In this document: positions 1,169 to 18,108 of the stretch, in pieces
How positions within the stretch are numbered: the stretch's first letter is position 1
How the letters are laid out: the number at the start of each line of letters is the position of its first letter
Source: an uncultured Monoglobus sp.
GTDB taxonomy: Bacteria; Bacillota; Clostridia; Monoglobales; Monoglobaceae
NCBI GenBank assembly: GCA_947585115.1
Contig: CANPWW010000022.1
Location: forward strand, 1-32,450
Direction of reading: 5' to 3'
DNA length: 32,450 bases
Program-made: the position numbers and the translations under genes
The notes under the pieces: model-generated
Told to the model about the DNA's origin: nothing
Seen by the model: the letters and a program-made list of their open reading frames with translations, nothing else
The model's database searches: none

Positions 1169-1179
1169 TATATTCCCTC

Positions 1180-1501: not shown

Positions 1502-1530
1502 ATTTTATCACATTCTGCTCCGTAAATCAA
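1502..1530 (-). promoter_or_regulatory. Sigma-A-type promoter for the DUF4160/DUF2442 unit
   Basis: On the minus strand TTGATT (1525-1530) and TAAAAT (1502-1507) are separated by 17 bases. The expected transcription start is about 1495, some 50 bases before the DUF4160 start codon. Confidence 0.6.
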
Positions 1531-1771: not shown

Positions 1772-1799
1772 TTGAAAAAAAGTAAAAATATGCTATTAT
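1772..1799 (+). promoter_or_regulatory. Promoter of the zinc-ribbon repeat protein gene
   Basis: TTGAAA (1772-1777), a 16-base spacer, then TATTAT (1794-1799), with an extended -10 TG at 1791-1792. It is followed at once by AAGGAGG and the start at 1824, so the leader would be very short. Confidence 0.6.
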
Positions 1800-1823
1800 A
1801 TACATACAAGGAGGTGTAAACTT

Positions 1824-2372
1824 ATGATTTGTAAAAATTGTGGGAGTGAGTGCGGAAATGCTAGATTCTGTCGAAACTGCGGTATGCCTATAATTATGCC
1901 CGAGCAGCCCGCCGATGAACCGGCGCCTATTTCTCAGCAGTCCGTCAATGAACCGGCACCTATTTCTCATCAGCCCGCCGATGAACCGACGCCTATTTCT
2001 CAGCAGTCCGTCAATGAACCGGCACCTATTTCTCAGCAGTCCGTCAATGAACCGGCACCTATTTCTCAGCAACCCGTCAATGAACCGACGCCTGTTTATC
2101 AGCAGACTGTCAACGAATCTACGCCGATTTCTCAACAGTCTGCGGGTGCTGCGACCAAGCCGTTTTTGTTAGGTATTCTTTCGTTAATTATTTCATTTCT
2201 GATGCCTATCATCAGTATTGTGTTAGGTATATTAGGCCTTGTTCTCACAAAGAAAGCCAAAGCTAACGACATAACTCAAAAAACCACAGCAGCTTTTGTG
2301 TTATCAATATGTGGAATTGTTATTTCGTCATTAAATTGGTTGATTGCTCTTGCCACATTATCTACTCTATAA
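1824..2372 (+). CDS. Zinc-ribbon membrane protein with proline/glutamine repeat linker
   Basis: A 182-residue protein with three parts. Residues 1-20 form a small zinc ribbon with CxxC pairs C3/C6 and C16/C19 plus an extra C10. Residues 29-105 are seven copies of an 11-residue repeat of the type NEPAPISQQSV, which should be extended and flexible. Residues 114-142 and 156-180 are two membrane helices separated by a short basic loop (KKAKAN), like the DUF4190-type tail of many Gram-positive zinc-ribbon proteins. The start is fixed by AAGGAGG nine bases upstream. The gene is divergent from the DUF pair and convergent with the VWA/tubulin cluster. No function can be assigned. Its zinc ribbon resembles that of the discoidin protein at 3760-4731, which may link it to that system. 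Confidence 0.75.
   Translation: MICKNCGSECGNARFCRNCGMPIIMPEQPADEPAPISQQSVNEPAPISHQPADEPTPISQQSVNEPAPISQQSVNEPAPISQQPVNEPTPVYQQTVNESTPISQQSAGAATKPFLLGILSLIISFLMPIISIVLGILGLVLTKKAKANDITQKTTAAFVLSICGIVISSLNWLIALATLSTL
1908..2138 (+). repeat. Seven in-frame 33-bp tandem repeats inside the zinc-ribbon gene
   Basis: Seven consecutive 33-base units encode 11-residue copies (PADEPAPISQQ, SVNEPAPISHQ, PADEPTPISQQ and variants). The first five are nearly identical at DNA level and the last two have diverged, as expected for recent expansion by slippage or unequal exchange. The period keeps the reading frame. Confidence 0.9.
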
Positions 2373-2408
2373 ACAAATTTTAGCTACTGATATATAATGT
2401 CAAAATTT

Positions 2409-2449
2409 AATACCGCCACGGTGCTTTGATCCGCGGCGGTATTGTTTGT
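2409..2449. terminator. Bidirectional terminator between convergent genes
   Basis: AATACCGCC (2409-2417) pairs perfectly with GGCGGTATT (2435-2443), with further inner pairs around the loop. A T-rich tail follows on the plus strand (GTTTGT) and a better one on the minus strand (AAATTTTG). It sits 37 bases past the zinc-ribbon gene and downstream of the last gene of the minus-strand cluster. Confidence 0.65.
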
Positions 2450-2533
2450 AAAATAAATTCCTTTTTATACTGTGATCGTAAAACAGTGATGCTGACGTTT
2501 AACAGATCATACTCAGAGTATAAATCCTTTTTA

Positions 2534-3733
2534 TTAATAGAATTCGCCTTTTTGTCTGATGTTGGATCCCACATTTGAACTGTTGCCATAAGGCACGGGA
2601 CATAACGCAAACAGAACACACATCAACAAACGCGCGATTGTTTCTAAAAACCAAATCTGACACAGCACTTCCACAAGAATAGAGCCGAGAACAATACTTG
2701 CCATACATACGATCAAGAATTTTGTTCCGTCGCTGCTTACAGACACATTAATATACTTGCTGTATGTAAGCAGAGCTCCTATAAGTATCAAAAATAATAC
2801 TCTCATTATTATGTATATAATATTATTGTTTGTTCTGTCAGCTCTTACGCTAATCAAATCTCTGTTCATTGATTGTTTCATAATGGCTTGTGCAACCGAA
2901 TTCTGCAATACGTCAACATTGTCGGCCGGCACAAATGCACCACCTGTTTTATCGGCTATTCTTTCGAATAAAACGCGATCATAGTCTCCAAATGCAACTG
3001 TTGAAAATGATATATCGTTTTCATTACACTTTAAAACAAATTCTTTTTCTTGTCTGCTACCGCTAATATCCGATGGCGAGCCGTCTGTAAGCGTTATTAT
3101 GCTGATAGGTCCTGCTATTGAATTTGCTTTAATATCATTGATAATCGTATCAAGAGCAGCGGCAATATTTGTTGAACCTTCTCCAATTTCCCAAGAAGAG
3201 GATGGTGTCACACTACCTGGTTGCACAGAACCTATTTCTGCAGCAAGGTGCGTTTCATTTCCAAAAGTATATATTCCAATCTTTTTATTTTGATCAAAGC
3301 TGTTTATAATATTGGCCACAACACCGTATCTCATATTATCCGGATCGTTGCCGAGCGAACTGTCTGTACTTCCCATCGAGGCTGAATTATCAATTAAAAA
3401 CACATACGTTTCAATGCTTCTGACCTTACTGAAATTCCGCTCATAAATCCACTCTAACCCCGCGCTCAAAACCGGCATTGCAGCGATCGATATAACAAGC
3501 ACAATAAGTATCTGCTTATGAAGCGTATAATGAATATTTTTATATGCACCCGAGAATTTACAAATCACGAACAAAAACAAGCTCAGGATTACCGCAAATA
3601 TTCCAAAATAAATTCCGACTGCCAACGGAACCGACATTACTTTTTTTAGCATATCAAACAATATACTTCCGGGAAAAAAATATATTAATCCAATGAGCAT
3701 TGTTATTATTGTAGGTATAATATTAAAGCACAT
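2534..3733 (-). CDS. Polytopic membrane protein with a VWA domain and intact MIDAS
   Basis: A 399-residue protein. Three N-terminal membrane helices (about 8-22, 38-60 and 74-92) precede a von Willebrand factor A domain (about 105-290). Three more hydrophobic helices (about 308-325, 339-357 and 360-380) follow. The metal-ion-dependent adhesion site is complete: D115-x-S117-x-S119 (DNSASM), T188 (GEGSTN) and D217 (LTDGSP). The domain should therefore bind Mg2+ and a protein ligand. The helix-VWA-helix layout recalls BatA/BatB-type proteins. GGGAGG lies 12 bases before the ATG, and an in-frame TGA just upstream excludes a longer start. It is the last gene of the cluster, 26 bases after the discoidin gene. 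I infer a membrane-bound scaffold or sensor role; the ligand is unknown. Confidence 0.8.
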   Translation of the reverse strand: MCFNIIPTIITMLIGLIYFFPGSILFDMLKKVMSVPLAVGIYFGIFAVILSLFLFVICKFSGAYKNIHYTLHKQILIVLVISIAAMPVLSAGLEWIYERNFSKVRSIETYVFLIDNSASMGSTDSSLGNDPDNMRYGVVANIINSFDQNKKIGIYTFGNETHLAAEIGSVQPGSVTPSSSWEIGEGSTNIAAALDTIINDIKANSIAGPISIITLTDGSPSDISGSRQEKEFVLKCNENDISFSTVAFGDYDRVLFERIADKTGGAFVPADNVDVLQNSVAQAIMKQSMNRDLISVRADRTNNNIIYIIMRVLFLILIGALLTYSKYINVSVSSDGTKFLIVCMASIVLGSILVEVLCQIWFLETIARLLMCVLFALCPVPYGNSSNVGSNIRQKGEFY

Positions 3734-3759
3734 ATCCGTTCTTCACCTCCCATTTAACG

Positions 3760-4731
3760 CTAATATACTTCAACTTCACTTATAGCTATGTCCTTCCAGT
3801 CTCCATAATAAGTTTCAAGCACTTGAATTCTTATATAGTTTGTCCATACAGGCGCGTCGAATTTAACATCCTGCATTATCCTATATTGATCAATTCCGCA
3901 GTCAACAATTACCCGGCCGCCCTCATATTCAACCATAAATTTTGTAATCCTTCGATTTCTCGTGTATGTTGTCTCGGATTTAAAGTAACCATTGGCAACC
4001 CTTACTCCGGTAACATATTGCGGTTCCGACGCTGTCAGTTCCAACGTAGGAGTAAGCTCCACGTTCCGATCACTGCTCCAAGCCGTACTGTAACTATCGT
4101 CAATCGCATACTCCGGATAATAATTAACTGCCGCACCCGAGGTGTAATCGGTTCCGCGGGTAGATGACGCATTTACATTCGAAAACACCGGAACCGGAAT
4201 AGGCGTGGGCTCAGAATCAGGCGTAAGCTGCGAATCATCAATACCAACTTTATCATTTTTGTCTAATTCCTGCGTCTCATTCACGCTATTGTGTGATGAC
4301 AAAAAACCGGGCAGATTCACTTCAATTATCCCGCTTTTGTCTAATATCACAATGACCAACAAGCTAAGCAAAATGACGGCAATAATGCTCAAACAGCTTA
4401 TAATCACGGTTAAAACCGCTCTTGCGTCCTTTTTGTTTTCGTCTTTCTTCTTTTTATTTTTTTCCGTATTTTTCAAAATGGATTCTTTCGGGGTTTCATC
4501 CCGCACATTATCAGCTCCGGGAATGTCAGGAAAAAGATCCGACACATTTTCGGCACTGCCATCAGGTGGGCAGACTTTGTTCTGATCCTTTTCCCCATTG
4601 CTATAAGGATCTGAGCCCGAATCCGACGTAAATTTCTTTTTCTGACTTGATTCATTATCAATAGCTGTGCCGCAATTTCCACAAAACAATGCATATTGAG
4701 GAAGATCGGCACCGCACACTTTACACTTCAC
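3760..4731 (-). CDS. Zinc-ribbon, single-pass membrane protein with C-terminal discoidin-like glycan-binding domain
   Basis: A 323-residue protein. Zinc ribbon C3/C6...C17/C20 at the N-terminus; acidic and lysine-rich linker to about 103; one membrane helix (about 104-130); a Thr/Pro-rich stalk; then a beta-sandwich of about 140 residues (184-323). The sandwich contains YPEYAIDDSYSTAWSS, VTGVRVANGYFKSETTYTRN and a terminal DIAISEVEVY. This fits the discoidin/F5-8C-like domain annotated in many Gram-positives as an NADase-type glycan-binding domain. With the zinc ribbon inside, the discoidin domain would face outward and probably bind cell-wall or host glycan; the ligand is inferred. The start codon is GTG at 4731 with GGAG ten bases upstream. 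It lies 36 bases after the GAP1-like gene. Confidence 0.75.
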   Translation of the reverse strand: MKCKVCGADLPQYALFCGNCGTAIDNESSQKKKFTSDSGSDPYSNGEKDQNKVCPPDGSAENVSDLFPDIPGADNVRDETPKESILKNTEKNKKKKDENKKDARAVLTVIISCLSIIAVILLSLLVIVILDKSGIIEVNLPGFLSSHNSVNETQELDKNDKVGIDDSQLTPDSEPTPIPVPVFSNVNASSTRGTDYTSGAAVNYYPEYAIDDSYSTAWSSDRNVELTPTLELTASEPQYVTGVRVANGYFKSETTYTRNRRITKFMVEYEGGRVIVDCGIDQYRIMQDVKFDAPVWTNYIRIQVLETYYGDWKDIAISEVEVY

Positions 4732-4767
4732 GTCACATCATCTCCATTTAGTTTTCAAACAATACAT

Positions 4768-7368
4768 TTATTCTTCAATTATACTGTATATTATGCTGCA
4801 TATCATGCCTATAATCAACAAGACGGCCAATATCAAAGCAAAAGTACAATGCACACAACCTATAAATATCATTGCCATTGACATTATAGCCGATCCGATA
4901 CATGGCCATATATCTAAGTTGCTATTAGTTTTTAATGTAATTCCAAAAACCGATATCTCTCCTATAACCAGTCCTGATATTAATGACACAATCAGAGTCA
5001 CAAGCATATTTTTAAAGCCGACACTCTCTAAGCCCAATCCCAAACATATAGACGCCAAAGGCGCGCCGCAAGCAAAAAGCATCCCTAAACTCAATCCTGT
5101 GTAACGTTCATCATGATCGGTTAAATCATAATGTTCTTTTATATATCCCCGCTGAGCGAGCAAACTATTAAGATACCCCATAAACTGCAAATCAGGAGAA
5201 GCTTTCAGTTCTTTAAACGTGTTATAAATGTACAAAAGTCCCTCAGGATCATTGGTTAGCATATATTGCAAAATATCACCGGTTCTTTCAGATCTCCACG
5301 AACGTAAAAAACCGTCCGGCCTGTTCATACTTTTTACATTCAAATCAAACACACCGCGGTCTATCGCTCTTTTGACCGGATCATACGCAACAAGCAACAG
5401 CCAATCAAGGGATTGTTTTGCCGCTGATGATGATTTTATTTTCTCTACTATCTGCTCTTTTAGATTTTCAATAGCTCCGGTTTTTATTTTTGCGCGTTTT
5501 AATACAATATTTTTTATAATTTCGAACGACTCACTGTCGGTACTTGGAATAGTTGCTATCGCGTTTTTGAGTTTATCGGAATTCCGACAGTTTTTGTTTC
5601 CCGGCAGATAAGCACTTGTATAATCTTCATTCGCATTCCATGTAACAAAGTCGCAGCAATCCCAAAATACTTGCTTTCCCTCATTGAATTTTTGAGAAGC
5701 AGCGTTCCCATACAATAAACGGGTTATTCTTTCATAGGACAGGTAATAAGCTATACCGAATTGCCTCGAAGCATCTCGGCTCAGTATAGTCTTGGTAATT
5801 TCATACGCTCTGTCACATAAATCCACATCACATAAAGACGCAATTATTTCACATTCAAAACTAATATCCGTAAAAGATCTGCACTTTTCAAGATAAAAAT
5901 CTCTATAATATGAAACTATCCAATCATGGTTTTCTTGGACAAGAGTTTTATCAAGATCAATATACAGTATCTTGCTGTTCCTGCGGATTTCATATAATTT
6001 TTGTTGACCTGACTGATCTCCGTCAACAATCGAGTCTGCCAGCGCCCTAACAAGAATATTGCATGAAACCGGAGCCGCTTTTTTAAAATTGTTATAAGAA
6101 TTCATGTTTTTATACAAAAACTCTTTTACTGCCCTTAAAAGATACTCCTTGTTGCCTGCTTGATAAGCGTATTGATTAATTCGATCAAAAACATCACGGC
6201 ATGTGGCGTATACCTTCCGAAGTTTATTGATTTTTTCATCAGTTATATCGTTGCAATAATAAACCGCCTCATAGTATTCTATCTGTTTCTTAAGTTCCTC
6301 CACTGTTGTTAACGAGTATTTCTTTAGCAGCATCATTTCATACTGCATAGGAATGTCATGGCCGTTCTTGCTACACCATTTCAACATATAAGCATTGGTC
6401 TTATCATATATCTGCTTTGTTGGCATGGTCAACAGGCGACCATATATCTTTTTAGCGCTTTCAAGACTTATTTCCGGATCTGATCCAATAATTATCGAAC
6501 TATATATCCATGCCATTGTTACCGTCTCGGACGCAGCCGTGTAGTTCGGAACTGCTGCCTCCATAAACTCATTCACATGTTTCTTATATTTTTCAGAGCA
6601 TCTGTTTCTAACGATTGCTTTAGCATGACCTTTTTCTTCATAAACAGCTTTACTCCATTTATATTCGCCGGTGTCAAGATTAATATAATAATCCTCAGGC
6701 TGTTTATTTGTAAACATAACGTCTATACCGGTCAGTCTATCATGCGCAAAACTGGAAAAGGAAATATTTAAGCCCAAGTATTCGGGAAGCAGTTTATATA
6801 CGCAGTACATAATTTCCCGCGCAACATTATAAAACTCATCCGTGTTTTTATCGATCACAATCTTGAGGCTCTTTTTATGCTCTTGTCTTTTTAGAACAGC
6901 CGTAAGTATAAGATGTATCAAGTTGACAAGCTTTTCATCAGATAAATTAAATTTGCTGATTATATTTTCAAAGTCATATAAATCAACCTTAGTCACAGAC
7001 TCTAATTGAGATAGTTCAACATCCATTGTATCAACAAAATCCTGAATTCCCGTAACGGCTCCGGGTTCGGAAAAAGTCGGAAAATAATCTGATTGGCTGT
7101 ATAGATAGCCATGCCCCATCATATTTCCTCTCTCACCTGATACGTACTGTCCACTTACACAAAAGATATACTTGCTTCCGTGCCATACCAAATACAGTCT
7201 CTCCGGCATATCTGCCAACGGGTCACTAAGTCCGGCTACCATAGCGTTACAGTGTGCTCTGAAATTATCCAACGCTTCTTTTCCGACACCGGAAGTTTGC
7301 TTTGTTGTCCAGCCGGATTTAAAATCCGCCGCGCCTATTCTGTTAAATAATATTTGCTCTATTTTCAT
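4768..7368 (-). CDS. GAP1-like (GTPase-associated protein 1) large membrane protein
   Basis: About 866 residues. I place the start at ATG 7368 because AAAGGA is ten bases from it, whereas an ATG three codons upstream lies one base from the Shine-Dalgarno sequence. The N-terminal ~130 residues (IEQILFNRIGAADFKSGWTT..., then VSGERGNMMGHGYLY) resemble the N-terminal domain of GAP1-family proteins, where an RxGNxxxHxxxx motif recurs; this is recognition from memory, not a search. The long middle region is mainly helical without a motif I know. The last ~110 residues hold four membrane helices, so the protein is anchored with its bulk probably cytosolic. It lies 42 bases downstream of the GTPase gene, the usual partner of this family. 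I infer that it transmits or modulates GTPase signalling at the membrane. Confidence 0.65.
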   Translation of the reverse strand: MKIEQILFNRIGAADFKSGWTTKQTSGVGKEALDNFRAHCNAMVAGLSDPLADMPERLYLVWHGSKYIFCVSGQYVSGERGNMMGHGYLYSQSDYFPTFSEPGAVTGIQDFVDTMDVELSQLESVTKVDLYDFENIISKFNLSDEKLVNLIHLILTAVLKRQEHKKSLKIVIDKNTDEFYNVAREIMYCVYKLLPEYLGLNISFSSFAHDRLTGIDVMFTNKQPEDYYINLDTGEYKWSKAVYEEKGHAKAIVRNRCSEKYKKHVNEFMEAAVPNYTAASETVTMAWIYSSIIIGSDPEISLESAKKIYGRLLTMPTKQIYDKTNAYMLKWCSKNGHDIPMQYEMMLLKKYSLTTVEELKKQIEYYEAVYYCNDITDEKINKLRKVYATCRDVFDRINQYAYQAGNKEYLLRAVKEFLYKNMNSYNNFKKAAPVSCNILVRALADSIVDGDQSGQQKLYEIRRNSKILYIDLDKTLVQENHDWIVSYYRDFYLEKCRSFTDISFECEIIASLCDVDLCDRAYEITKTILSRDASRQFGIAYYLSYERITRLLYGNAASQKFNEGKQVFWDCCDFVTWNANEDYTSAYLPGNKNCRNSDKLKNAIATIPSTDSESFEIIKNIVLKRAKIKTGAIENLKEQIVEKIKSSSAAKQSLDWLLLVAYDPVKRAIDRGVFDLNVKSMNRPDGFLRSWRSERTGDILQYMLTNDPEGLLYIYNTFKELKASPDLQFMGYLNSLLAQRGYIKEHYDLTDHDERYTGLSLGMLFACGAPLASICLGLGLESVGFKNMLVTLIVSLISGLVIGEISVFGITLKTNSNLDIWPCIGSAIMSMAMIFIGCVHCTFALILAVLLIIGMICSIIYSIIEE

Positions 7369-7410
7369 AACAGACATATCCTTTCATGTATGATCATATA
7401 TATCAAAATT

Positions 7411-8835
7411 CTATTTTATCAATTTCCATTGATTAAGCAGCCACAAAATCGGCTCCTCAATACGAATGGGATTAGGCGTTTCCTTAGGTGTCCATAAACC
7501 TGTATCAGGTAATTTTTCAACTCCGCATCCTAAAGATGATACACCAAAGTATCCATAATTTTTGAAATTATTGGTTATTTTCGTGTGAAGCGCCGGATTA
7601 TTAATATGCATAACATTATATATATCAGCGTTAACATTGCTGTACTGGTCATTGTTAAATTTCCCGCCCGGCTCAGCCACAACAGGCTTTCTGATCGAAC
7701 TTGTAGGAGGCAAAACCTGGTCTCCCGTTGGATATTCAAGATTCATCAGCATATCAATTTTCGATATTGCAACTGCTGTACTGATCTCGGAAGGACCGCT
7801 CTTTCCTCCCATATAAGCATTGTATATCGCATCCACAACCATGCCCGGCTGAGCAGATCTCGATCCCGCCAACGAATCGGGAAATACGTTTGCCTGCTTA
7901 AGCAAAGCTTGTATCTGCGGAAATTGTCCGGGGTCAACCAGAATCAATATTCCGTCCGAATTTTTGATAAACGGTCCGTAACGAACAACCCTTTCCGCTT
8001 TTTTAAACACCTCTCCCGCTATGTCATAAAGAACCAGTGTTGTCTTTGTATTGCTGATACTGTTTGTTAAATCGAAATATATAGGTGGCACAAACTCTAT
8101 GACTGTACCAATCGGCAATGGTTCACCCTTTTCGACAACCTTTTCCTCCATAAATTTATATGCTTCATCACTGTACATAACAGAAATGTTATACGGAACC
8201 AATAAATCTCCCAAATTCCGCATTAGCTGAGATAAATACACCGTTTTGCCGGATGATGTTATGCCGATCACTGACATAAACTTAATCTTATTCTTTCCAT
8301 AAGATCTCGGCAAAATATTATGACAATGCGGACATATTTTATGGTCGGTTCTCACTCCCGATCCATCTACTATAGCGGAAAGAAATCCGTCTTCGTCGTA
8401 TTCCTTATTGGTAACCTCGGAACTGTATGCCTCAATAATCGGATATTCGCTGTATTCATCTAACGCATAATTTTCATCACCAACCATTGTGCGCCAAAAG
8501 CTTGAATATGAGACATCTTTTTTTAATGAATATCGCTTCATATTTTCAAGCTGACTAACCAACATCGGATCATGCTCCTGCAAAGCCTCTTTTTCTGCGA
8601 TACGCAGTTCAACTTCATTTATACTCTCTTCGGAAAAAAATGTTTTACTTCTGAAAGCTACCTCCTCATGAGAAAATGTTTTAAAACAAAACGGACACAT
8701 AATATGGTTCCAATGCTCCTTACTGTCCGCATTGTTATCACGCTGGGCTGTCCTATTTTGCGGAGCCGCCTTGCCCGCTTTTTCAGCGCCTTTAGCTTTT
8801 GATTGATCACCAAACAAATTTTCCAAAAATCCCAT
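7411..8835 (-). CDS. Zinc-ribbon TRAFAC-type GTPase
   Basis: A 474-residue protein. Two cysteine pairs, C47/C50 (CPFC) and C168/C171 (CPHC), bracket a helical insert of about 115 residues and probably form one split zinc ribbon. The P-loop GITSSGKT (191-198) follows at once. The switch II/Walker B-like motif is LYDIAGE (D271-x-x-G274), and ISKID (358-361) stands where GTPases have NKxD. Asn is replaced by Ser, so guanine specificity needs checking. No membrane helix is seen, so it is cytosolic. The arrangement matches the double-zinc-ribbon/TRAFAC clade GTPases found beside GAP1 proteins. AGGAGG sits before the ATG, and the gene starts 15 bases after the 213-residue protein. It is probably the regulatory nucleotide switch of the cluster. 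Confidence 0.8.
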   Translation of the reverse strand: MGFLENLFGDQSKAKGAEKAGKAAPQNRTAQRDNNADSKEHWNHIMCPFCFKTFSHEEVAFRSKTFFSEESINEVELRIAEKEALQEHDPMLVSQLENMKRYSLKKDVSYSSFWRTMVGDENYALDEYSEYPIIEAYSSEVTNKEYDEDGFLSAIVDGSGVRTDHKICPHCHNILPRSYGKNKIKFMSVIGITSSGKTVYLSQLMRNLGDLLVPYNISVMYSDEAYKFMEEKVVEKGEPLPIGTVIEFVPPIYFDLTNSISNTKTTLVLYDIAGEVFKKAERVVRYGPFIKNSDGILILVDPGQFPQIQALLKQANVFPDSLAGSRSAQPGMVVDAIYNAYMGGKSGPSEISTAVAISKIDMLMNLEYPTGDQVLPPTSSIRKPVVAEPGGKFNNDQYSNVNADIYNVMHINNPALHTKITNNFKNYGYFGVSSLGCGVEKLPDTGLWTPKETPNPIRIEEPILWLLNQWKLIK

Positions 8836-8850
8836 TGATTCTTCCTCCTG

Positions 8851-9492
8851 CTATTTTTGCTGTACTTTATAAAATTCGCTGTATCTCTGTTCAACGCATA
8901 CCGTAATATTTTGTCCGTTAGTGCTCAATGAAAACGAATCTCGCATCATTTCGGCAGTTATAGGAAAACTGACCGAACAACCTGAAACTTTGTATATTAG
9001 GACACCGGTATCACATTTGGCGGCCGGAAATCTGATTTCCTTCTTTTCGGAACCAAATCCAAACAAGCCGCGTTTTGTCGTCATAGTGTAGTTAATCACT
9101 ATCGGGATAAACACTGTGTTGCCGGTATAATTCCCACATTTGTATAACACGGTATTATTCTTAACGGTTTCATAAGGATATACGGATATCTTCTGCGGCC
9201 TGACAACAAACTGCTTATAGCAGTGCATCGAACCGGCGGCAGTGTACATATCGTACGGTAGCAATATTGATTGGTAACTCTTTACATCCTTTCGCAATTC
9301 CGAAATTGAACGCGCACTCTCAGCCATCTCCCAAAACTGATCCTCACCGTTTTCGATAGCATCACTGATAACCACAATAAACCCGTCATATTTGGGAGAA
9401 TTCCATTTTATATTCCTGTCGCTTAAATTAATCGTCGATACGCTTATGTTCTTGACAGCCTTATCTTCACCGCTCTCTTGAATAATAAGCAT
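8851..9492 (-). CDS. Unrecognised 213-residue protein between tubulin partner and GTPase
   Basis: I do not recognise this family. The protein has no signal peptide or membrane helix and appears mixed at the N-terminus (NSPKYDGFIVVISDAIENG, residues 31-49). The second half is mostly beta-strand, with short aromatic strands such as NTVFIPIVINYTMTT and TGVLIYKVSG. A loop around residue 148 (KRGLFGFGSEKKEI) is basic and Gly-rich. AGGAGG lies seven bases before the ATG. The start is only three bases after the stop of the 629-residue gene, so translational coupling is likely. It is probably a small cytosolic adaptor of the tubulin/GTPase system. Confidence 0.65.
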   Translation of the reverse strand: MLIIQESGEDKAVKNISVSTINLSDRNIKWNSPKYDGFIVVISDAIENGEDQFWEMAESARSISELRKDVKSYQSILLPYDMYTAAGSMHCYKQFVVRPQKISVYPYETVKNNTVLYKCGNYTGNTVFIPIVINYTMTTKRGLFGFGSEKKEIRFPAAKCDTGVLIYKVSGCSVSFPITAEMMRDSFSLSTNGQNITVCVEQRYSEFYKVQQK

Positions 9493-9495
9493 TTT

Positions 9496-11385
9496 CTATT
9501 CCTCCTCGCCTAAATTAAACACACTCTGCAGATTTTTTATCTTATATATGATGATATTTTCAACGCGATCACTACGCTCAGAATCAAAAACATTCTGAGA
9601 ATTATTTTGCATCAGCTTTTGAACAAACTCAGCGTTTGGATTTCCCAAGTACACTTGGCAAACCGACTCGCAGTCAAAATCATTAATCATAGTCAAGCGG
9701 CGACTATTCTCAATATTATTATCAAGCGCTTTGTGTATCATATCGTTACGATGGAGGAAATTTCCGCTTGTTCCCTGCAGCCTGGTCGAAAGCTCATTTT
9801 CAAAATCCATCGTATAGACGCTCAGATTTTTGACAAGGCTCTCAAATAACCGCATTAAGCCGTCAAGCAAGCCGCGCTCATCAAGACGAACATTCATTAA
9901 TTGCCTGAATTCTTTTCTGTTATACTCGTCAGAGTTAATCCAATCCCTAACCAAATCTCTATAATAATCATCGACGCTCTCGTACAACGCCTTATTGATT
10001 GTAACTGCCGCTCTGGGCATATTATTTTCCAATTTTATTATAATTTTTTCAAATCGTTCGGCCTTTTTATACAAATCGTCAAGCACTCTGATATATAAAT
10101 TTCTTGCAAGCGTCAAATATTTATTTCTTAGTACGCTGCGTCCGTATTCTGCCGTTACACCATATAAATTGCTTCCGCTGGCAGAATTAACCTCAACTCC
10201 GCCGGTGACATTACGCGCAATATTGGTTTTAAATACCTCGATCATTTCTTTATAATTAAACTTTTTAATAAGATAATTATTCAATTCATCTTCAAAAGAA
10301 TTATCACCAATAATTTGGTTTAACGGTCTCTCATAATTTAATTTGTAAAATTCGCTCCATTGCCCATTTGTATATTCGTTAAGCACAGCATCATTTACCG
10401 ACGTTCGTCCGTGGGTGCTTTTTGAAACAGACGGATTCCACGCCATGTATTCAATCTGGGACGAATTAGGCAAAACATTCAAAAAATGGTTGCGAAAATA
10501 ATCCTCAAAAAAAGTAAAATTACTTGATGTAAATTCAAGGTCAATATTTTTATTTATGCTGCAATCAAGAATTTCACGCAGAATGCCGATATATGTTGCG
10601 GTGGCGATTTCTCTGCACGGTTTTCCAACCAGTTGATATGCGACTGTGTTGATCCTTCTGGATTCGTTAAGGTCATAATACCACGCTCCAACACTTCCAT
10701 CAGTTTTGCAATTGTTTTTAAGTACAATAATACTTCCGACCAGATTATAGTTTTCAATTATTCGCTGCTCGGATAATATATGTCCGCTTTTCAAAAAATT
10801 ACTCACGAGATACAGCTGTCGAACATTCTCTTGCTCAACAAAAAAGTCAAAATCGGCATTAAACCGCATGATAAACTTTTCGGTGTCTTTCTGCTTATTC
10901 TGGTTTGATTGGTTAATAAGCAGATACAACGCCTTCCAGATCGTTATACCTACTAAACCGGATTTGATTTCCGATATTCTCTTCAATATATCGTATAAAA
11001 TCGGCTCGTCCCCGGTTGCAACGCACTCGATATTGATTTTTTGCATATCAAGAAAAACATCCATAGTATTTAGCAACCGCTCGCGAATACAAAAATCTAC
11101 AACATCCTCCAGAGTTCCGCTGAACTCGTCAAACTCCAGCTTTTTATTTGCGCAAAGAACCGCTTTGTTGCCATCACCTGACATGACATGAATTTTGGGG
11201 ATATACTCACTGTTTAACCAACTGTTATGCAGTGGGTTTTCAATATACTTGGAGGCTTCAAACGCTTCATCTCCGATATATATGATCATAACCGGAGACT
11301 TTGCCATATTGCCGTTTCCCACAAGATCCCATTTTTTCTCAATCAATTCGGAAGATTGGGTCAAAAGCGCCTTAATCGAGTCCAT
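9496..11385 (-). CDS. Unrecognised 629-residue cytosolic protein downstream of the tubulin-like gene
   Basis: No domain is recognisable. There is no signal peptide and no membrane helix. The N-terminal 60 residues contain a strand-turn (KSPVMIIYIGDEAF) that could open an alpha/beta fold. The centre (about 160-330) is mixed alpha/beta. From about residue 380 it becomes long, charged helix (RNKYLTLARNLYIRVLDDLY; KKAERFEKIIIKLENN), suggesting coiled-coil or helical-bundle character. GGAGG precedes the ATG at 11385. The gene follows the tubulin-like gene after 85 bases containing a strong stem-loop and is tightly joined to the 213-residue gene. Position suggests a binding partner of the tubulin-like protein; nothing in the sequence shows an enzymatic activity. 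Confidence 0.65.
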   Translation of the reverse strand: MDSIKALLTQSSELIEKKWDLVGNGNMAKSPVMIIYIGDEAFEASKYIENPLHNSWLNSEYIPKIHVMSGDGNKAVLCANKKLEFDEFSGTLEDVVDFCIRERLLNTMDVFLDMQKINIECVATGDEPILYDILKRISEIKSGLVGITIWKALYLLINQSNQNKQKDTEKFIMRFNADFDFFVEQENVRQLYLVSNFLKSGHILSEQRIIENYNLVGSIIVLKNNCKTDGSVGAWYYDLNESRRINTVAYQLVGKPCREIATATYIGILREILDCSINKNIDLEFTSSNFTFFEDYFRNHFLNVLPNSSQIEYMAWNPSVSKSTHGRTSVNDAVLNEYTNGQWSEFYKLNYERPLNQIIGDNSFEDELNNYLIKKFNYKEMIEVFKTNIARNVTGGVEVNSASGSNLYGVTAEYGRSVLRNKYLTLARNLYIRVLDDLYKKAERFEKIIIKLENNMPRAAVTINKALYESVDDYYRDLVRDWINSDEYNRKEFRQLMNVRLDERGLLDGLMRLFESLVKNLSVYTMDFENELSTRLQGTSGNFLHRNDMIHKALDNNIENSRRLTMINDFDCESVCQVYLGNPNAEFVQKLMQNNSQNVFDSERSDRVENIIIYKIKNLQSVFNLGEEE

Positions 11386-11426
11386 AACTACTCCTCCATA
11401 TTCATTATATTATCGAAAATCATACC

Positions 11427-11458
11427 CGCAAGGTATTCGAAATCCCGAATACCTTGCG
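11427..11458 (-). other. Intercistronic 13-bp stem-loop
   Basis: Bases 11427-11439 pair perfectly with 11446-11458 across a six-base loop. There is no T-tract on the minus strand (GGGTATGATTTTCG follows), so this is not a classical terminator. Its place, 13 bases past the tubulin-like stop codon and 42 bases before the next start, fits an mRNA processing or 3'-end protection element that could make the tubulin-like mRNA more abundant than the downstream part. Confidence 0.6.
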
Positions 11459-11470
11459 ATTAAATAAATA

Positions 11471-14400
11471 CTACTCGTTATCATGGATAAACTTTTTGAG
11501 GCCTTCATAGAAATCTATGACAAAATTTTCGGCTTCCTCAGCGGATTCATTAAACGTTCTGGCCGCGTCTCTGTACTCTTTCACCCTGTCCTTGTCAAAA
11601 TACTCAAGAAGGCTGTTTGCATTATCAAAAACTTCGTCCGAAATTTCGCCGTTTAATATAGCCTTTGTCTTTTCAAAGATTTCCTCACGCATAGTGCTAT
11701 CCGGCATTAAAGCATATTCCAGCGCAGCCTGATAAACAGGAACTTCATCAAAATCCTTGCCAACGTCGGTAAATACCTTTTGCTCGTCAATATCGCCCTT
11801 GCCTTTGTAATCATAGACATACTTGGTCCTGTTTCTTCTGATAACACCGGCGTAAACTGCCTGTCTGAACTGCTTAATATACTTCACCTTGGCCCCGGTA
11901 TAATTACTTTTTAATGCTGCAATCTCTCCGCACAATCTGTCATACTTATCCCTCAGATCAAACAACGCGCTGTATATCACAGGATATTTTACTATCACAT
12001 CTATAACCGCATCGTTCATGGAATTAGAAACTACTCCTGAAGGTATCTTTATGTCAACGCCGTCTTTGGATGTGTCGATAAAGTTCGACTTTAAGTCTTC
12101 CAGTTTTGCGATCGCATCTGCGAGATCTTCGGACGATCTTTCCGTGGCTTTCTTAATCTCGTCATAATCAATGTCCACGGCAGCGGGTATAACATACTCC
12201 GGAGCACTATCATCTCCCTTGTTTATTATAAGATTATTCTCTTTTAAGAAAGCAAAATCAGCCTTTACTCTGTCTATCCTCTTTCTGTCGGGTCTTGACG
12301 CTTCATAATTATCAATCACATATGTTGCCGGCATCGGTGACGATAAAATCTTTCTCCAATTATTTTCACCTTTTTCATATAAGTGCACACCACGCGTTCT
12401 GCTCCCGCAATATGTTGTTTCCATCTGACGCAGGGGTTGATATGAGAACACAGGAATACCGGTATAGAACCACATCAATGAAATTCTGTCTTTCACATCG
12501 GTTTTTCTGATCGTTACCTTAATATTATTCTTGTTAGCGTATGTTTGAGCCGCCATCTCCAAAAGCGTCTCGTCCCTTGGTATTGACAATACACGCTGAA
12601 TAGGCGACTGCGTCTGCACATCAAAGGCCGTCTTATCCGCATAAAATGCCGGAGTCGCGTTATCCACCAGACCCTTTCCGATAACATCCTCAGAAATCGA
12701 GTTTACCAGCGAATTTCCATCAGAATTGAACTTGTTCCTCAAATAAGTTATCATACTCTTGTCTATCGCATCTTTATACCGCATCTTTACAAATTCCGAT
12801 ACTATATTTACGATTGGGATCTCCTCCGCCATTAACCATTTTTCTATATTCTTTGGTTCAAGCATCATTGTCATAAAGTCGGTCATAGCCTGCTTTGCCG
12901 AAAGGCGTCCGTTCTGATCCTTTGTAAGACCCTTCTTCAATTCCTCGTCAAGCGTATCCTGAATTCCCTCAAGCTCAACCATGTTCCAAAGATATTGCCT
13001 TCCGGCACCTTTATGAAATCCGGCTTTAAACAGATTATCATTTTCTCCAAACGTTTCCTTGAGATTAGTCAGCACCGTTGTGAGCGGCATAAAGAAATCC
13101 TGATACAGACGGCTCAGCTTAGTTCTTACATTAGTGAGCAAATCTTCCATGGTCCGCAGCTTTTCCAGGTTATGCTGATGACGCACATAATTCATTTGCT
13201 CGCTCATATATTTCTTTTTTCTGGTATTCAACATCGGATTTATCGAGCCGGTGTGCAGGAACTCAGACTTAGCTTTTTCAAGCTCATCATGTCTTAACTG
13301 CTCCTGCTGCACCTCGGTGCTTACCCTCTCTCTTACCTCTTTAAGCAGACCCTCAAGGCAATTGTCAAAAGCAAATCTGTCATTATGTTTGAGAACAGCC
13401 GCCGCGTAATACGGGCCTTTATCGCTGTCTGTTACATACGAAAGCAGAGTCTTGTACACCTTGCCGATTATCGAATCAGGAACGTTTGAAACTTCCCACA
13501 TTCCGGGGTTAAGATCTCTGGACAAACGCTCATACGCTTCTTTCAGCTTGCCGCTTGCAACATCCAGCCAGTTGTTGGTCCTGCTAACCATCGGTGCGTT
13601 GCCCGCCTGTAAATCCTTGGCTGATATATCGGGCAAAGTCAGCGCGGGGATCTCTTTGGTCAAGGCTTTTTCAAGATCCATATATGTGATTTCCGTTATT
13701 TCGGCAAACTGGCGCACAGCGGGCTCATTCGGCAGCTTATCGTAATAATCAAAATATTTAAATAGACCGGTGCCCAAATATGTGGCAATTTCTCTGTAGG
13801 GTATAATCGCGCTTGAAGCTCCCATTACATCGTAGCAGTACTCAGCGCCGTGCTTTTTATTTACCTTTCCTCTCAGCGTAAGCAGATTAGAGATAAGGCC
13901 CGCCATAGTAAGTTCGTTTACCGCTTTTTGATCGGCGGCTTTGCCGGCATCAAATTTGGCAATATAATTTAGCAGGTACTCACTAAGCGCGTGCATAACA
14001 TAGTTAAATGAGTTTTCGGGTATAGTTCCGTCTATATCCGTTGTCGACAGCAGATAACATTCATTAACGGGCGGCATATCAGTATCAACCACAAACCCGT
14101 CATAGTCCTGTTTAAACCTACCATCGCCATCCTTTAAGTTCATAAGATAGTCCAGTTCCTTCAAGGCCGCGTACCCGTTTTCCTGAATATAACTTTTATG
14201 CGCTTCATCGTTTGGGAAACCGGGCGAGCTTAAATTAACATCGGGCAGGAAAAAGAATCCCGTAATGTTTGCTGGTGAAAGCTTGCCAATATCGCTTAGA
14301 GCCTGCTGCACAATATAGCATGTGTCGATAAAGCAGCCGCTGCCTGTTCCGCCGGATATACCCGCAAATATATGTATATATAAACTCGGCTCTTTAATTC

Positions 14401-14902
14401 CGACCAAAGCGGAATTGACCATTTGCTCAATTCTGTTTTTCAGTGCCACCGCTTTTTTTACAATAAGAAATCTTCCTATTTCTCTGACACCGCAAGCGCC
14501 GTCTTTTGCGGTTTCAACTTTAATATTATCGTGATCAAACCATTGCAGTGAAGAATCATTGTCTAATGTAGATTTATTATTAAGAAGATCGACTATATTG
14601 GATACGCCGATTCCAAAGAATTCCGACTTTTCAATATTATAGCCGGAACCGCTGCGGCTTGAATTATCAGAATCAATAGCCAAAAATCTTATTCTGTTAT
14701 ATATCGGGTCCTGATTTTCCTGTTCTCCGTTATCGGGGATCAAACGAGTATAAACCGCCTCTTTAAATGTTCTGAGAGCGGTTATTCCTGTTCCGCCGAT
14801 ACCGATGGCTATTGTTACAGAGTTCTCATCCTGCATGGCTTTTTCCATATCCGACACAATTCCACCGTAAGAGCCATTAGTTACTAACGATTTGTAAATC
14901 AT
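11471..14902 (-). CDS. Large tubulin/FtsZ-like GTP-binding protein (Tubulin_2 type)
   Basis: A 1143-residue protein whose N-terminal ~400 residues carry tubulin-superfamily marks: VTIAIGIGGTGITALRTF (T1-type glycine loop, 29-46), FLAIDSD (73-79), and FAGISGGTGSGCF (179-191), which contains the tubulin signature in GGTGSG form (184-189). The rest is three times longer than FtsZ and largely helical, with charged heptad-like stretches (about 520-620) and no membrane helix. This fits the large bacterial tubulin-like group (Pfam Tubulin_2), found in multi-gene clusters rather than in division. It should bind GTP and may polymerise; that is inference. GGAG sits eight bases before the ATG. About 190 bases separate it from the VWA gene, with a weak possible internal promoter (TTGTGT, 17 bases, AATATA). 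It is likely the central element of the cluster. Confidence 0.8.
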   Translation of the reverse strand: MIYKSLVTNGSYGGIVSDMEKAMQDENSVTIAIGIGGTGITALRTFKEAVYTRLIPDNGEQENQDPIYNRIRFLAIDSDNSSRSGSGYNIEKSEFFGIGVSNIVDLLNNKSTLDNDSSLQWFDHDNIKVETAKDGACGVREIGRFLIVKKAVALKNRIEQMVNSALVGIKEPSLYIHIFAGISGGTGSGCFIDTCYIVQQALSDIGKLSPANITGFFFLPDVNLSSPGFPNDEAHKSYIQENGYAALKELDYLMNLKDGDGRFKQDYDGFVVDTDMPPVNECYLLSTTDIDGTIPENSFNYVMHALSEYLLNYIAKFDAGKAADQKAVNELTMAGLISNLLTLRGKVNKKHGAEYCYDVMGASSAIIPYREIATYLGTGLFKYFDYYDKLPNEPAVRQFAEITEITYMDLEKALTKEIPALTLPDISAKDLQAGNAPMVSRTNNWLDVASGKLKEAYERLSRDLNPGMWEVSNVPDSIIGKVYKTLLSYVTDSDKGPYYAAAVLKHNDRFAFDNCLEGLLKEVRERVSTEVQQEQLRHDELEKAKSEFLHTGSINPMLNTRKKKYMSEQMNYVRHQHNLEKLRTMEDLLTNVRTKLSRLYQDFFMPLTTVLTNLKETFGENDNLFKAGFHKGAGRQYLWNMVELEGIQDTLDEELKKGLTKDQNGRLSAKQAMTDFMTMMLEPKNIEKWLMAEEIPIVNIVSEFVKMRYKDAIDKSMITYLRNKFNSDGNSLVNSISEDVIGKGLVDNATPAFYADKTAFDVQTQSPIQRVLSIPRDETLLEMAAQTYANKNNIKVTIRKTDVKDRISLMWFYTGIPVFSYQPLRQMETTYCGSRTRGVHLYEKGENNWRKILSSPMPATYVIDNYEASRPDRKRIDRVKADFAFLKENNLIINKGDDSAPEYVIPAAVDIDYDEIKKATERSSEDLADAIAKLEDLKSNFIDTSKDGVDIKIPSGVVSNSMNDAVIDVIVKYPVIYSALFDLRDKYDRLCGEIAALKSNYTGAKVKYIKQFRQAVYAGVIRRNRTKYVYDYKGKGDIDEQKVFTDVGKDFDEVPVYQAALEYALMPDSTMREEIFEKTKAILNGEISDEVFDNANSLLEYFDKDRVKEYRDAARTFNESAEEAENFVIDFYEGLKKFIHDNE

Positions 14903-15094
14903 ATTCTAATCTCCAATCTTTTAAATATATTTTTAAGTTTAATTATTTACACAATATGAACGATCTCACATCTCCGCCTTTAAGACTGTCTAAACGAACT
15001 AAAATCAATCTTGAAAAAGTCCACACAGCCTGTTATATCTTCGCTTCAAATCAAACAACACGCTGTATAGCAACGGATCTGTTGAACCAATATA

Positions 15095-17080
15095 TCACAT
15101 GTAAGAAATATCCGCGCCGGACAAAAAGTCGGGAGTTGCGCTGATGGTCGTAGTCATTCCGAGCGCTATTTCGACCTTTTTTATGGGGACCGTCGGATCC
15201 GGAGCAGTTGTGCAATAGAACGGGGTCTTCGACTGATAATATATAAACGTCTTATCCTTTGGCAGAAAAGTTCCATCCAATCCTACATCCATTGCAGACA
15301 TATCAAGATTCCTAATCGGCTGCTTTCCTCTGTAAGGATCATGAATTCTGCTGTTATATATCACTCCCGTATTCTTATCAAATATTTTTATCATGATTTT
15401 GCCGTAATATTTTCTGTGGCTCAACTTAATTATAATCGAAGCAATAACAGCCAAAATAATCAACGCGATCAAAATAATCGTGACGATCATCCATTTCGCC
15501 ATGCTGATAACATTAAACGAAAACTTGATAGGCGATGACGCCCCGCTTGAATCAACGGCTAAAACCTCAATATCTCCATCAATGCTTTTTGACGGAGAAA
15601 CAGTCAGATTACTTCCGCTGAGAGTCACATCCTCATCGTTGAAGGAGGAGTTTGATATCTGATATGTAAGACTTGAGTCAATATCATCGCTGGCGTACTG
15701 CGACAAATCATATGTCTTGCTTCCGCCAAAGAATGGCTTTCTCACAATTTTATCTTCTATCAACGGCTGAGAGATCACCGGGGGTTTGTTGCCGACATTG
15801 AAGGTGATAACATTACTGCTTTGAACTGTGCCGCTTAAACTGAGATTTATAACGCCTTCATAAGATGCTACATCGGGAACCGGAACTTCGGCATAATATT
15901 TTCCGTTTTGCACAGTCATATCCACGGTTTCCTCGGTACCTGTTTTCAGATTTTTAAATACGAAAACCGCCTTATTTTCGTTGTATGCATTAATATCGGT
16001 AATGACGTTACCGCTTGCCTGTTCCTGCAGCGTACCTTCAACTTTAATTGATTCGTTAATGTTATAATCATCCGGATCTTTGTCTGTCGAAGCAACGACC
16101 TTCATGTCCGTGTTAACGATCATTGATATTATAACCTCATTTCCGGGATCACCCGAAACAACGACTTTCCAATCGCCGGGATCAGGCTTGACCAGTTTTA
16201 AAGCGTTGAAAGAATTATTTTTAACTAATATCTGATCAAGCTCGGCCTGTGAATAGGCAGTTCCGTCAGGTCTATAGAGGGTAACGGCACTGACTCTTCC
16301 TCTCGTGATTATGTTAACCTCCTCAACGCCCAACGACGGCACGTTGAAGGGCTGCTCTATTTTTCCTGTCGCGTCGATAACATAAGGATTTATGGTCGAT
16401 GGTGTATTGAATATGAGTTTGTAAAAGCTCTCTGTTACCTTAGACATATCATTCGGATTTTGCACTTCTATAAATTCTCCGCCCGTGGAAGACGCGATAT
16501 CGTTCAGTTCGCTTGCGTTCATTGAGCCGTCAGCATTAAGTCCTATACAATATATCTTATAATGGCCTGTGCGCGCGTGCTGTATTGCATACTGCTTGTA
16601 ATAATCCGCTTCGTCCATTGCTTTTTTCTCTTTAAGGTCCGTATTTCCGTCAGACAGCAAAAGTATTATAGAGTCAAGATCTTTATTTCTGCCGGCATCC
16701 AACATATCCGTAGCCGTTGCAATTGCAAGGCCTATGTTGGTATCTCCCTTTGAAGGTATAATTGAGCGCAAATCATTCATAACCGCCCGTTTATCGTCAA
16801 AGGATGTCATCTCCTTAGGCGGCATCGTCTTATCAATAGTTTGTGTGAAAATAACATCACCAACATAATTACCGTTGTTTGCAAGAAGACTCAAAAACAA
16901 ATCCATAGCCTCATATCTAAGTCCGTCTGAATCAGTTTTATTCATCGAACCGCTGGCGTCCATTACAAACACAACATTAAATTTATTGGTCGGCTCATCC
17001 GCAAATACCATATACCCCGATATAAGAACAAGCACCAAAGCCGTTAAAAACGCGCAAATTCTTTTTAATATACTTTTCAT
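15095..17080 (-). CDS. Secreted, membrane-anchored VWA protein with Ig/cadherin-like domain and cytosolic tail
   Basis: 661 residues from the ATG at 17080, chosen because GGGAGA lies nine bases upstream and a signal peptide starts there (MKSILKRICAFLTALVLVL). A VWA domain occupies about residues 34-225. Its MIDAS is complete: D41-x-S43-x-S45 (DASGSM), T114 (KGDTN) and D144 (LSDGN). Two or three beta-sandwich regions follow, the last (about 440-525; NKPPVISQPL...ASDDIDSSLTYQI) cadherin/Ig-like. One membrane helix (about 528-552) leads to a basic HRKYYGK stop-transfer and a cytosolic tail of about 108 residues. The topology is that of a surface sensor or adhesin with an internal output. It is the first gene of the large cluster, directly behind the promoter and palindrome at 17107-17158. 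Confidence 0.85.
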   Translation of the reverse strand: MKSILKRICAFLTALVLVLISGYMVFADEPTNKFNVVFVMDASGSMNKTDSDGLRYEAMDLFLSLLANNGNYVGDVIFTQTIDKTMPPKEMTSFDDKRAVMNDLRSIIPSKGDTNIGLAIATATDMLDAGRNKDLDSIILLLSDGNTDLKEKKAMDEADYYKQYAIQHARTGHYKIYCIGLNADGSMNASELNDIASSTGGEFIEVQNPNDMSKVTESFYKLIFNTPSTINPYVIDATGKIEQPFNVPSLGVEEVNIITRGRVSAVTLYRPDGTAYSQAELDQILVKNNSFNALKLVKPDPGDWKVVVSGDPGNEVIISMIVNTDMKVVASTDKDPDDYNINESIKVEGTLQEQASGNVITDINAYNENKAVFVFKNLKTGTEETVDMTVQNGKYYAEVPVPDVASYEGVINLSLSGTVQSSNVITFNVGNKPPVISQPLIEDKIVRKPFFGGSKTYDLSQYASDDIDSSLTYQISNSSFNDEDVTLSGSNLTVSPSKSIDGDIEVLAVDSSGASSPIKFSFNVISMAKWMIVTIILIALIILAVIASIIIKLSHRKYYGKIMIKIFDKNTGVIYNSRIHDPYRGKQPIRNLDMSAMDVGLDGTFLPKDKTFIYYQSKTPFYCTTAPDPTVPIKKVEIALGMTTTISATPDFLSGADISYM

Positions 17081-17106
17081 CTTATCATCTCTCCCTATCT
17101 TAGACA

Positions 17107-17128
17107 TAAATGTGTAATTACACATTTA
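17107..17128. promoter_or_regulatory. Perfect 22-bp palindrome, probable operator of the tubulin/GTPase/VWA operon
   Basis: The half-site TAAATGTGTAA (17107-17117) is followed without a spacer by its exact reverse complement (17118-17128). It starts one base downstream of the -10 hexamer of the minus-strand promoter and covers the expected transcription start, a classic repressor position. A TTACACA half-site recurs at 14947-14953 in the gap before the tubulin-like gene. The regulator is not obvious in the window. Confidence 0.7.
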
Positions 17129-17129
17129 C

Positions 17130-17158
17130 CATATATTTATGTATGTTGTTTCAGTCAA
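17130..17158 (-). promoter_or_regulatory. Promoter of the VWA/tubulin/GTPase cluster
   Basis: Minus strand: TTGACT (17153-17158), 17-base spacer, TATATG (17130-17135). The transcription start would fall near 17123, inside the palindrome and about 43 bases before the VWA start codon. Confidence 0.7.
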
Positions 17159-17273
17159 CAGATTTTTATTATGTTAATTATCGACTGGAATATGTTGTCT
17201 GTTACCTACATTATCTTCACTTGATGAAGTATCTTCAACGAGTGACCCTTTGCTGCGGCCCTTTTCATCATCA

Positions 17274-17552
17274 TTAACGTCTTTCTTTTTCCGGAGTTTC
17301 TGTAGGTTCTGAGGGAACAGGCTCGTTCGAAGGCACAAGTGTAGGTGTGGGATCCTGACTATCAGTCCCGAAATTGCCCTTGTCCATTCCCACATATACA
17401 GCGCCTATAACAATCAAAGCCGAGAGCAACGTTACAATAACAGGCACGATAATTCGACCGAGAATACCGTTTTTTGGTAATAAACAGAAAAAAATCCAGC
17501 AAATAACTAAAACTACTGATAATACTAATACTGCGATATTTACTATACTCAA
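17274..17552 (-). CDS. Small two-helix membrane protein with Pro/Thr-rich tail, probably frameshifted
   Basis: A 92-residue protein starting with TTG at 17552, fixed by AGGAGG eight to nine bases upstream. Two membrane helices (about 4-24 and 32-54) are followed by an extracytoplasmic tail rich in Pro, Thr, Ser and Glu (DPTPTLVPSNEPVPSEPTET) and a stop at 17274. In the +1 frame, starting at the A5 run just before that stop, the sequence continues open for about 35 codons to 17174 with a highly charged, coding-like composition (KKDVNDDEKGRSKG...). Removing one A would fuse the two into about 126 residues. Natural frameshift, programmed shift and assembly error are all possible. It precedes the VWA operon by its own promoter. 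Function unknown. Confidence 0.5.
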   Translation of the reverse strand: MSIVNIAVLVLSVVLVICWIFFCLLPKNGILGRIIVPVIVTLLSALIVIGAVYVGMDKGNFGTDSQDPTPTLVPSNEPVPSEPTETPEKERR

Positions 17553-17612
17553 TTTAACACCCTCCTAATTCAATACGCTAACTTCCATATTTTAAATAAT
17601 ACCTTAAATAAT

Positions 17613-17641
17613 AATCTACCACATTTTTAAACAAAAAACAA
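17613..17641 (-). promoter_or_regulatory. Possible promoter of the small membrane protein gene
   Basis: Minus strand: TTGTTT (17636-17641), 17 bases, TAGATT (17613-17618), about 60 bases before the TTG start. The surroundings are very AT-rich, so chance matches are common. Confidence 0.35.
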
Positions 17642-17743
17642 GATATTTTTATCAAAAAATATATAATTCGTAAAAATATTTTTATATCCTTATATCTTTT
17701 ACTTTAATACTAATAGTTTTTGCAATATTCTAAATTAATTTTT

Positions 17744-18067: not shown

Positions 18068-18108
18068 TTATAATATATACATCGCTTTACATTAATTATA
18101 TCCTATAA

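Follow-up and report, generated by a model that had tools for sequence, protein, structure and literature searches.

An uncultured Monoglobus sp. carries, on a single contig of its 2.34-Mb draft genome (the window, which is the whole contig of 32,450 bp), a run of eight minus-strand genes centred on a tubulin-like protein. This locus almost certainly belongs to the GAP1-N2-type, tubulin-centred GTPase systems of Firmicutes and was acquired horizontally. The best overall explanation combines this membership with a tubulin assembly at the membrane that is gated by receptors, and this combined account is given slightly less than an even chance of being correct.

Gene set and order

The eight open reading frames (ORFs) are all present, at 2534-3733, 3760-4731, 4768-7377, 7411-8835, 8851-9492, 9496-11385, 11471-14902 and 15095-17080. 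Counted from the 2534 side, they are separated by 26, 36, 33, 15, 3, 85 and 192 bp. These coordinates confirm the eight same-strand genes of the initial annotation, and the gaps show that its spacing of ‘mostly 3 to 85’ bases was therefore correct, the one exception being the 192 bp between the gene for the vWA-Ig protein and that for the tubulin.

Conservation was assessed in 76 loci (L numbers) found by scanning named genomes with an alignment of nine tubulin sequences. They derive from the top 80 among 525 confirmed relatives of the tubulin and so lean to close relatives. Each window protein was used to build an iterated hidden Markov model (HMM), which was searched first against chosen ORFs in 79 loci (the 76 and three more) and then against all six-frame ORFs of the 76 loci. 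By a strict rule, the genes for a 629-aa partner protein, an FNIII-like protein, a DO-GTPase and a GAP1 protein lie downstream of the tubulin in 57 of the 60 loci in which the last tubulin is followed by 7 kb or more. Two of the failures (L058 and L081) have all four genes, with the partner overlapping the last 4 and 7 bases of the tubulin, and the third (L091) is an additional tubulin that lies after the L066 operon on the same contig. The vWA-Ig gene is upstream of the tubulin in 60 of the 63 loci with room for it (exceptions L077, L090 and L091), and a polytopic vWA gene (vWA-TM) is found in 35/60. All six core genes occur together in 56 of the 76 loci, and 55 of these keep the order vWA-Ig, tubulin, partner, FNIII, GTPase, GAP1; L090 has an extra tubulin in front. 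Most of the 20 loci without one or more core genes are short records or are cut inside the operon, and L076 and L077 hold several tubulins with no further gene set within the sequence covered. The initial annotation had proposed one conserved system of the GAP1, TRAFAC-type GTPase, Tubulin_2 and vWA class, to be supported by co-occurrence of at least six of the eight genes, and the gene-set conservation bears this out.

The same counts bear on the alternative that the genes are chance neighbours on an island with no joint action. A discoidin gene that is unique to the window locus among those searched, an internal hairpin and the 192-bp gap would be in keeping with chance proximity. However, the co-occurrence of the four downstream genes, of the upstream vWA-Ig gene and of all six together contradicts it for these six genes, the discoidin gene excepted, and chance association is considered very improbable.

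Sequence divergence is uneven across the set. Mean identity in 16 of 24 Paenibacillus-type loci is 79% for the GTPase and the tubulin, 62% for vWA-Ig, 53% for FNIII, 52% for vWA-TM, 51% for the partner and 39% for GAP1, and between the window and L047 it is 54% for the tubulin, 53% for vWA-Ig, 48% for the GTPase, 39% for the partner, 38% for vWA-TM, 26% for FNIII and 23% for GAP1. A steady tubulin and GTPase with drifting partner, FNIII, vWA-TM and GAP1 proteins is the pattern expected for a fixed engine with adapting couplers. The family alignments are subsets, namely 37 of 57 listed members for GAP1 (A4), 45/52 (A5), 55/63 (A6) and 38/55 (A9), each with the window protein added, together with 20 of 25 members (A7) and eight vWA-Ig proteins plus that of the window (A8).

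Tubulin-like protein and its partner

The 1143-aa tubulin-like protein (11471-14902, minus strand) matches Pfam Tubulin_2 at 3.2e-52 and has the N-terminal tubulin-type GTP loops of the FtsZl1/Tubulin_2 family, GIGGTG at 34 and GGTGSG at 184. Among family tubulins of at least 600 aa, the T1 loop is found in 91/94 and the T4 loop in 79/94, these counts scoring a pattern anywhere in the protein and not at an aligned position. Identity with the housekeeping FtsZ is rejected, as an ordinary FtsZ is found separately on another contig. Operons with two to four tandem tubulin genes or pieces are seen in L059, L076, L080, L088, L089 and L097; many of the extra copies have no canonical T4 loop, and all four in L076 are without it.

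The 629-aa and 213-aa proteins had both been described as unrecognised, which agrees with the absence of any Pfam match for either window protein. Predicted folds now go further, giving the 213-aa protein an FNIII-like fold and the 629-aa protein (9496-11385, minus strand) a degenerate tubulin fold without GTP-binding loops. In the model of the latter, a long helical stretch lies within the span aligned to tubulin. The T1, T4 and relaxed T4 patterns occur in none of 66 partner family members, anywhere in the protein, and Tubulin_2 is matched at E up to 0.1 in 13/56 members (best 1.1e-5). Alongside its lack of GTP loops and its internal helical stretch, the partner is set apart from the solved Tubulin, CetZ, TubZ and FtsZ structures by an identity of 6-12%. 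A profile-profile comparison of the partner and tubulin families, made with few sequences, gave a probability score of 48 and E = 1.9e-4 and is superseded by the structure model. Among the sequences of solved structures, the five rows found with the partner profile are weak and include no tubulin, and a search with the tubulin profile gave nothing up to E = 0.1.

GTPase, GAP1 and FNIII-like proteins

The 474-aa DO-GTPase (7411-8835, minus strand) matches DO-GTPase2 at 27.3 bits, just above the cut-off of 27, and contains two CxxC pairs, in line with its earlier description as a zinc-ribbon GTPase, together with a Walker A motif (GITSSGKT), DIAGE and SKID. DO-GTPase2 is matched by 38/39 family members, and D271, G274 and E275, which include the Walker B glutamate, are invariant in 39 members. 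Directly downstream is the 869-aa GAP1-N2 family protein (4768-7377, minus strand), which is tied to its family by the iterated HMM. Family members match GAP1-N2 (21/38) and GAP1-M (15/38), and the window protein has four hydrophobic segments near its C terminus (764-863), both in keeping with the earlier reading of a GAP1-like membrane protein. The 213-aa protein (8851-9492, minus strand) probably consists of two FNIII-like domains, judged from its predicted fold; no Pfam family is found in more than one member of its family. Hydrophobic segments are predicted in the vWA-Ig, GAP1, discoidin and vWA-TM proteins and in none of the tubulin, partner, FNIII-like and GTPase proteins.

vWA and discoidin proteins

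Pfam VWA is matched in both end genes, as had been annotated. The vWA-Ig protein (15095-17080, minus strand; VWA 1.1e-15) is predicted to have a signal peptide, an outside vWA with a metal ion-dependent adhesion site (MIDAS) of the form DASGS, beta-sandwich domains, one transmembrane helix and an inward tail that is conserved in an alignment of nine. Its ORF is open from 17125, and the in-frame ATG at 17080, preceded by AGGGAGAG, begins the signal-peptide-like stretch. A GBD_Hemicentin-like match is below cut-off in the window protein; among nine members scanned, a GBD_Hemicentin-type match is found in all and a YtkA match in none. The polytopic vWA protein (2534-3733, minus strand; VWA 3.1e-8) has six hydrophobic segments, with the vWA between the third and fourth, and a DNSAS MIDAS. 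The DxSxS motif is present in 66/70 vWA-Ig and 36/36 vWA-TM proteins.

The 323-aa product of 3760-4731 (minus strand) combines an N-terminal zinc ribbon, a transmembrane segment and a discoidin (NADase-type glycan-binding) domain, with matches to NADase_transloc (1.1e-16) and NADase_discoid (9e-19). The initial annotation saw in it a defining sensor, a role that is rejected here since its HMM, run on the chosen ORFs of the 79 loci, finds no match other than itself at E < 1e-5, with no second match in its own genome. Its uniqueness is not thereby proven because many of the 79 loci end before or shortly after GAP1. Surface-type proteins follow the polytopic vWA gene, at the point where the window genes end, in L052 and L086 (SH3 + Amidase_3) and in L061 (zinc ribbon + YARHG), and are perhaps counterparts of the discoidin protein.

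Other genes follow GAP1 in relatives. The 37 Clostridia-type loci with GAP1 divide almost exclusively between vWA-TM only (10) and a kinase-like gene only (22), with both in two and neither in three, where vWA-TM is counted anywhere in the locus and the kinase-like gene, of ~340 aa, directly after GAP1 (e.g. L055, L057, L066, L067, L070, L074, L122). A three-helix membrane gene accompanies the kinase-like gene in 19 of these 22 loci. The kinase-like family profile matches protein kinases at 3e-12, six of 20 members match Pkinase, and a single ORF of L057 (8284-10671) joins an N-terminal kinase-like domain to the DO-GTPase. In L048, a close relative, FHA and MinD/TadZ-like genes come immediately after GAP1 (20263-22343).

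Comparison with described systems

The available text of Kaur et al. (2020, eLife, PMC7159879) describes GAP1-N2-type systems as a DO-GTPase, a GAP1 protein and an FNIII protein, with tubulins in ~52%, and a Firmicutes version with a pair of tubulin genes and a pair of vWA genes, one vWA fused to YtkA and the other polytopic with the vWA outside. The window agrees in its DO-GTPase with zinc ribbons and Walker B glutamate, its GAP1-N2 protein and FNIII component, its two tubulin-domain proteins with a helical part, and its two vWA proteins, one with further domains and one polytopic with the vWA outside. Because every core gene has a counterpart in this portion of the source, the window is taken as a new member of the described class, and the earlier suggestion that paired vWA proteins may mark an undescribed variant is withdrawn. 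Unlike the Firmicutes theme as given there, in which GAP1 has a highly polar C-terminal extension, the window GAP1 ends in its four hydrophobic segments; this end is treated as a variable trait because the same text reports C-terminal transmembrane segments in other GAP1-N2 proteins. The discoidin gene and a 92-aa leader gene are additional to what it describes, and a second tubulin without GTP loops is not stated there, nor was a published statement of such a partner found in the literature searched.

A similar grouping appears in the available part of Makarova and Koonin (2010, PMC2875224), where the FtsZl1, vWA and GTPase genes are linked to membrane remodelling. A Tubulin/FtsZ-like 1 protein with a long coiled-coil or helical region, a vWA protein and a divergent GTPase share one operon both there and in the window, whereas GAP1, FNIII and a loop-less second tubulin are not named in that part, which reports OmpA-family and kinase genes in other lineages. 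As far as their available text goes, both papers deduce membrane-linked assemblies from gene context.

Genomic island and distribution

The system lies within a 17.4-kb island (1565-18977) with a G+C content of 39.1% versus 52.7% in its flanks, inserted downstream of the terminator-like hairpin of clpC. In the genus relative G008, the counterparts of window 829-1564 and 18978-22238 are 4 bases apart, and 1565-18977 is therefore an insertion. Five genus relatives were compared at this position (window 1564/18978), which is empty in G008 and holds other DNA in G010 (4.4 kb) and G011 (2.4 kb); G012 and G013 matched the right flank only. Phage or plasmid origin is rejected, the only records matched being a weak plasmid one and a weak phage one, over 16% and 23% of the tubulin.

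Tubulin_2 is found in 1/12 genus genomes, and thus in none of the other 11, and in 3/38 family genomes. Over cut-off it is present in 11/391 class genomes and 11/398 phylum genomes (14 in each case at E up to 0.001), all four counts including the own genome. A genome scan with the single tubulin sequence gave 11 stretches, none of which was confirmed. Over the same cut-off, 72/148 genomes of a Paenibacillaceae-like family have Tubulin_2 (the family name being inferred from named Paenibacillus loci with the same gene order), including 55/61 in one genus. A 320-aa upstream neighbour is kept in 23/24 Paenibacillus-type loci (exception L104). Corynebacterium glutamicum gave a control match for both Tubulin_2 and DO-GTPase2. 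The system is thus nearly fixed in one lineage and behaves as an island in another.

This distribution bears on two alternatives concerning function. The first, proposed in the available text of Kaur et al. (2020), is an anti-phage or conflict system in which an invader is sensed by the FNIII and GAP1 proteins and the infected cell is stopped by the tubulin assembly as effector. The empty site, the sporadic occurrence in the genus (1/12), the fast evolution of GAP1 and FNIII and the exchangeable genes after GAP1 all speak for it. Defence genes are expected to show gain and loss, whereas the system is near-fixed in the Paenibacillus-like genus beside the same upstream neighbour; moreover, the best PADLOC-DB match among the eight proteins has E = 0.026, and Pfam recognises no toxin or nuclease domain in them. 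A conflict function is accordingly possible but rather doubtful.

The second is a developmental or wall-remodelling cytoskeleton of housekeeping type, acting in sporulation, chaining or vesicle formation, which is near to the membrane remodelling suggested for FtsZl1 operons in the available part of Makarova and Koonin (2010). Near-fixation in the Paenibacillus-like genus, the wall-type domains beside the operon in L052, L086 and L061 and the predicted membrane topology favour this possibility. The failure to find Tubulin_2 in the other 11 genus genomes, and the 6/61 genomes of the Paenibacillus-like genus that have no Tubulin_2 over cut-off, count against it, leaving it a credible if still tentative option.

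Transcription signals and flanking genes

The initial annotation placed the eight genes under one promoter, which is not demonstrated. A scan of 1-19100 found 89 promoter-like sites versus 58.4 (standard deviation 8.3) in shuffles, and because these are scattered over both strands no promoter can be placed; a hairpin also lies inside the gene run. This 15-bp hairpin (11426-11459, minus strand), in the tubulin/partner gap, is followed by GTATGATTTT and has z = -4.3. Stable hairpins (z below -3, from 60 shuffles each) occur in 13/28 tubulin/partner gaps of 30-200 bp, window included, versus 8/70 in four other gaps pooled, and in 17/24 Paenibacillus-type loci this gap is just 1-4 bp. The hairpin may act in attenuation or in RNA stability.

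A further gene may precede these eight in the operon, a 92-aa ORF (17274-17552, minus strand) that probably encodes a small membrane protein, with a TTG start after AGGAGGG, two hydrophobic segments and a Pro/Thr/Glu-rich tail. A counterpart sits at the equivalent place upstream of the vWA-Ig gene in L047, L048 and L049. In tblastn searches of the region (no composition correction), E is 2.8e-5 from L048 and 0.004 from L049, with no match from L047. Within 17174-17552, the ORF stops after an A-rich run, and an acidic tail resembling that of the relatives apparently continues in another frame; this break may be an assembly slip or a true frameshift. At the left end of the island, a plus-strand gene (1824-2372) contains a 33-bp repeat array and encodes a protein that begins like a zinc ribbon and has two hydrophobic segments. 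Its kinship with the Pro/Glu-rich upstream genes of L048 and L049 was dropped because the tblastn matches fall in low-complexity repeats.

Proposed mechanism and significance

The mechanism we propose, in which receptors act through the GTPase on tubulin assembly with the partner at the membrane, is tentative and, taken as a whole, rather less likely than not. It builds on the class membership, predicted folds, motifs, predicted topology and gene linkage shown above. On the wall side, the two membrane vWA proteins and, in this locus, the discoidin protein would bind one another or a ligand in the envelope, with MIDAS sites mediating the binding by the vWA domains. From there the signal would reach the zinc-ribbon GTPase by way of the conserved inward tail of vWA-Ig and the membrane-anchored GAP1, the FNIII protein serving as adaptor, and the state of the GTPase would license tubulin assembly at the membrane. 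The partner would be a built-in co-polymer, cap or nucleator which, not being switchable by GTP, would therefore set where and how far filaments grow. The output would be a tubulin structure attached to the membrane, by which the envelope is reinforced, reshaped or sealed when the cell is stressed or attacked, and we lean slightly toward a cytoskeleton for envelope stress that can also serve in conflict.

Several observations weigh against membership in this class or against the receptor-gated mechanism. For the partner model, Foldseek alone finds nothing at or below E = 0.001, and unrelated proteins make up two of its top eleven rows; the co-polymer role is read from fold and linkage, and the partner could be a scaffold instead. 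Pfam finds no FNIII match in 46 members of the 213-aa family and no GAP1 match in the window GAP1 itself. Among 16 earlier loci found with the Tubulin_2 model alone, BLASTP identifies recognisable GTPase neighbours in seven (L018, L020, L026, L041-L044) and no recognisable GTPase or GAP1 neighbours in nine, three of which are contigs of at most 8.1 kb; the tubulin is therefore found in other settings too. Finally, the literature searched contains no recognised test of interaction, polymerisation or phenotype for this system.

A bolder and less probable form of the mechanism is an obligate heteromeric bacterial tubulin made of GTP-binding and loop-less subunits from adjacent genes, whose joint filament would be anchored to and controlled by the outward vWA receptors through the DO-GTPase/GAP1 relay, with the hairpin setting unequal subunit levels in many Clostridia. 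If true, it would be an integrin-like link from the outside to an inside cytoskeleton, near-core in the Paenibacillus-like genus and a mobile island in Clostridia.

All core parts of a system class predicted from genomes now have identities, and a tubulin-fold partner without GTP loops is singled out that accompanies the tubulin in nearly every locus with room for it. The Paenibacillus-like genus, in which the system is nearly fixed, and C. glutamicum are organisms suited to its study. A receptor-gated filament, should the pair form one, would represent a new type of bacterial cytoskeleton.

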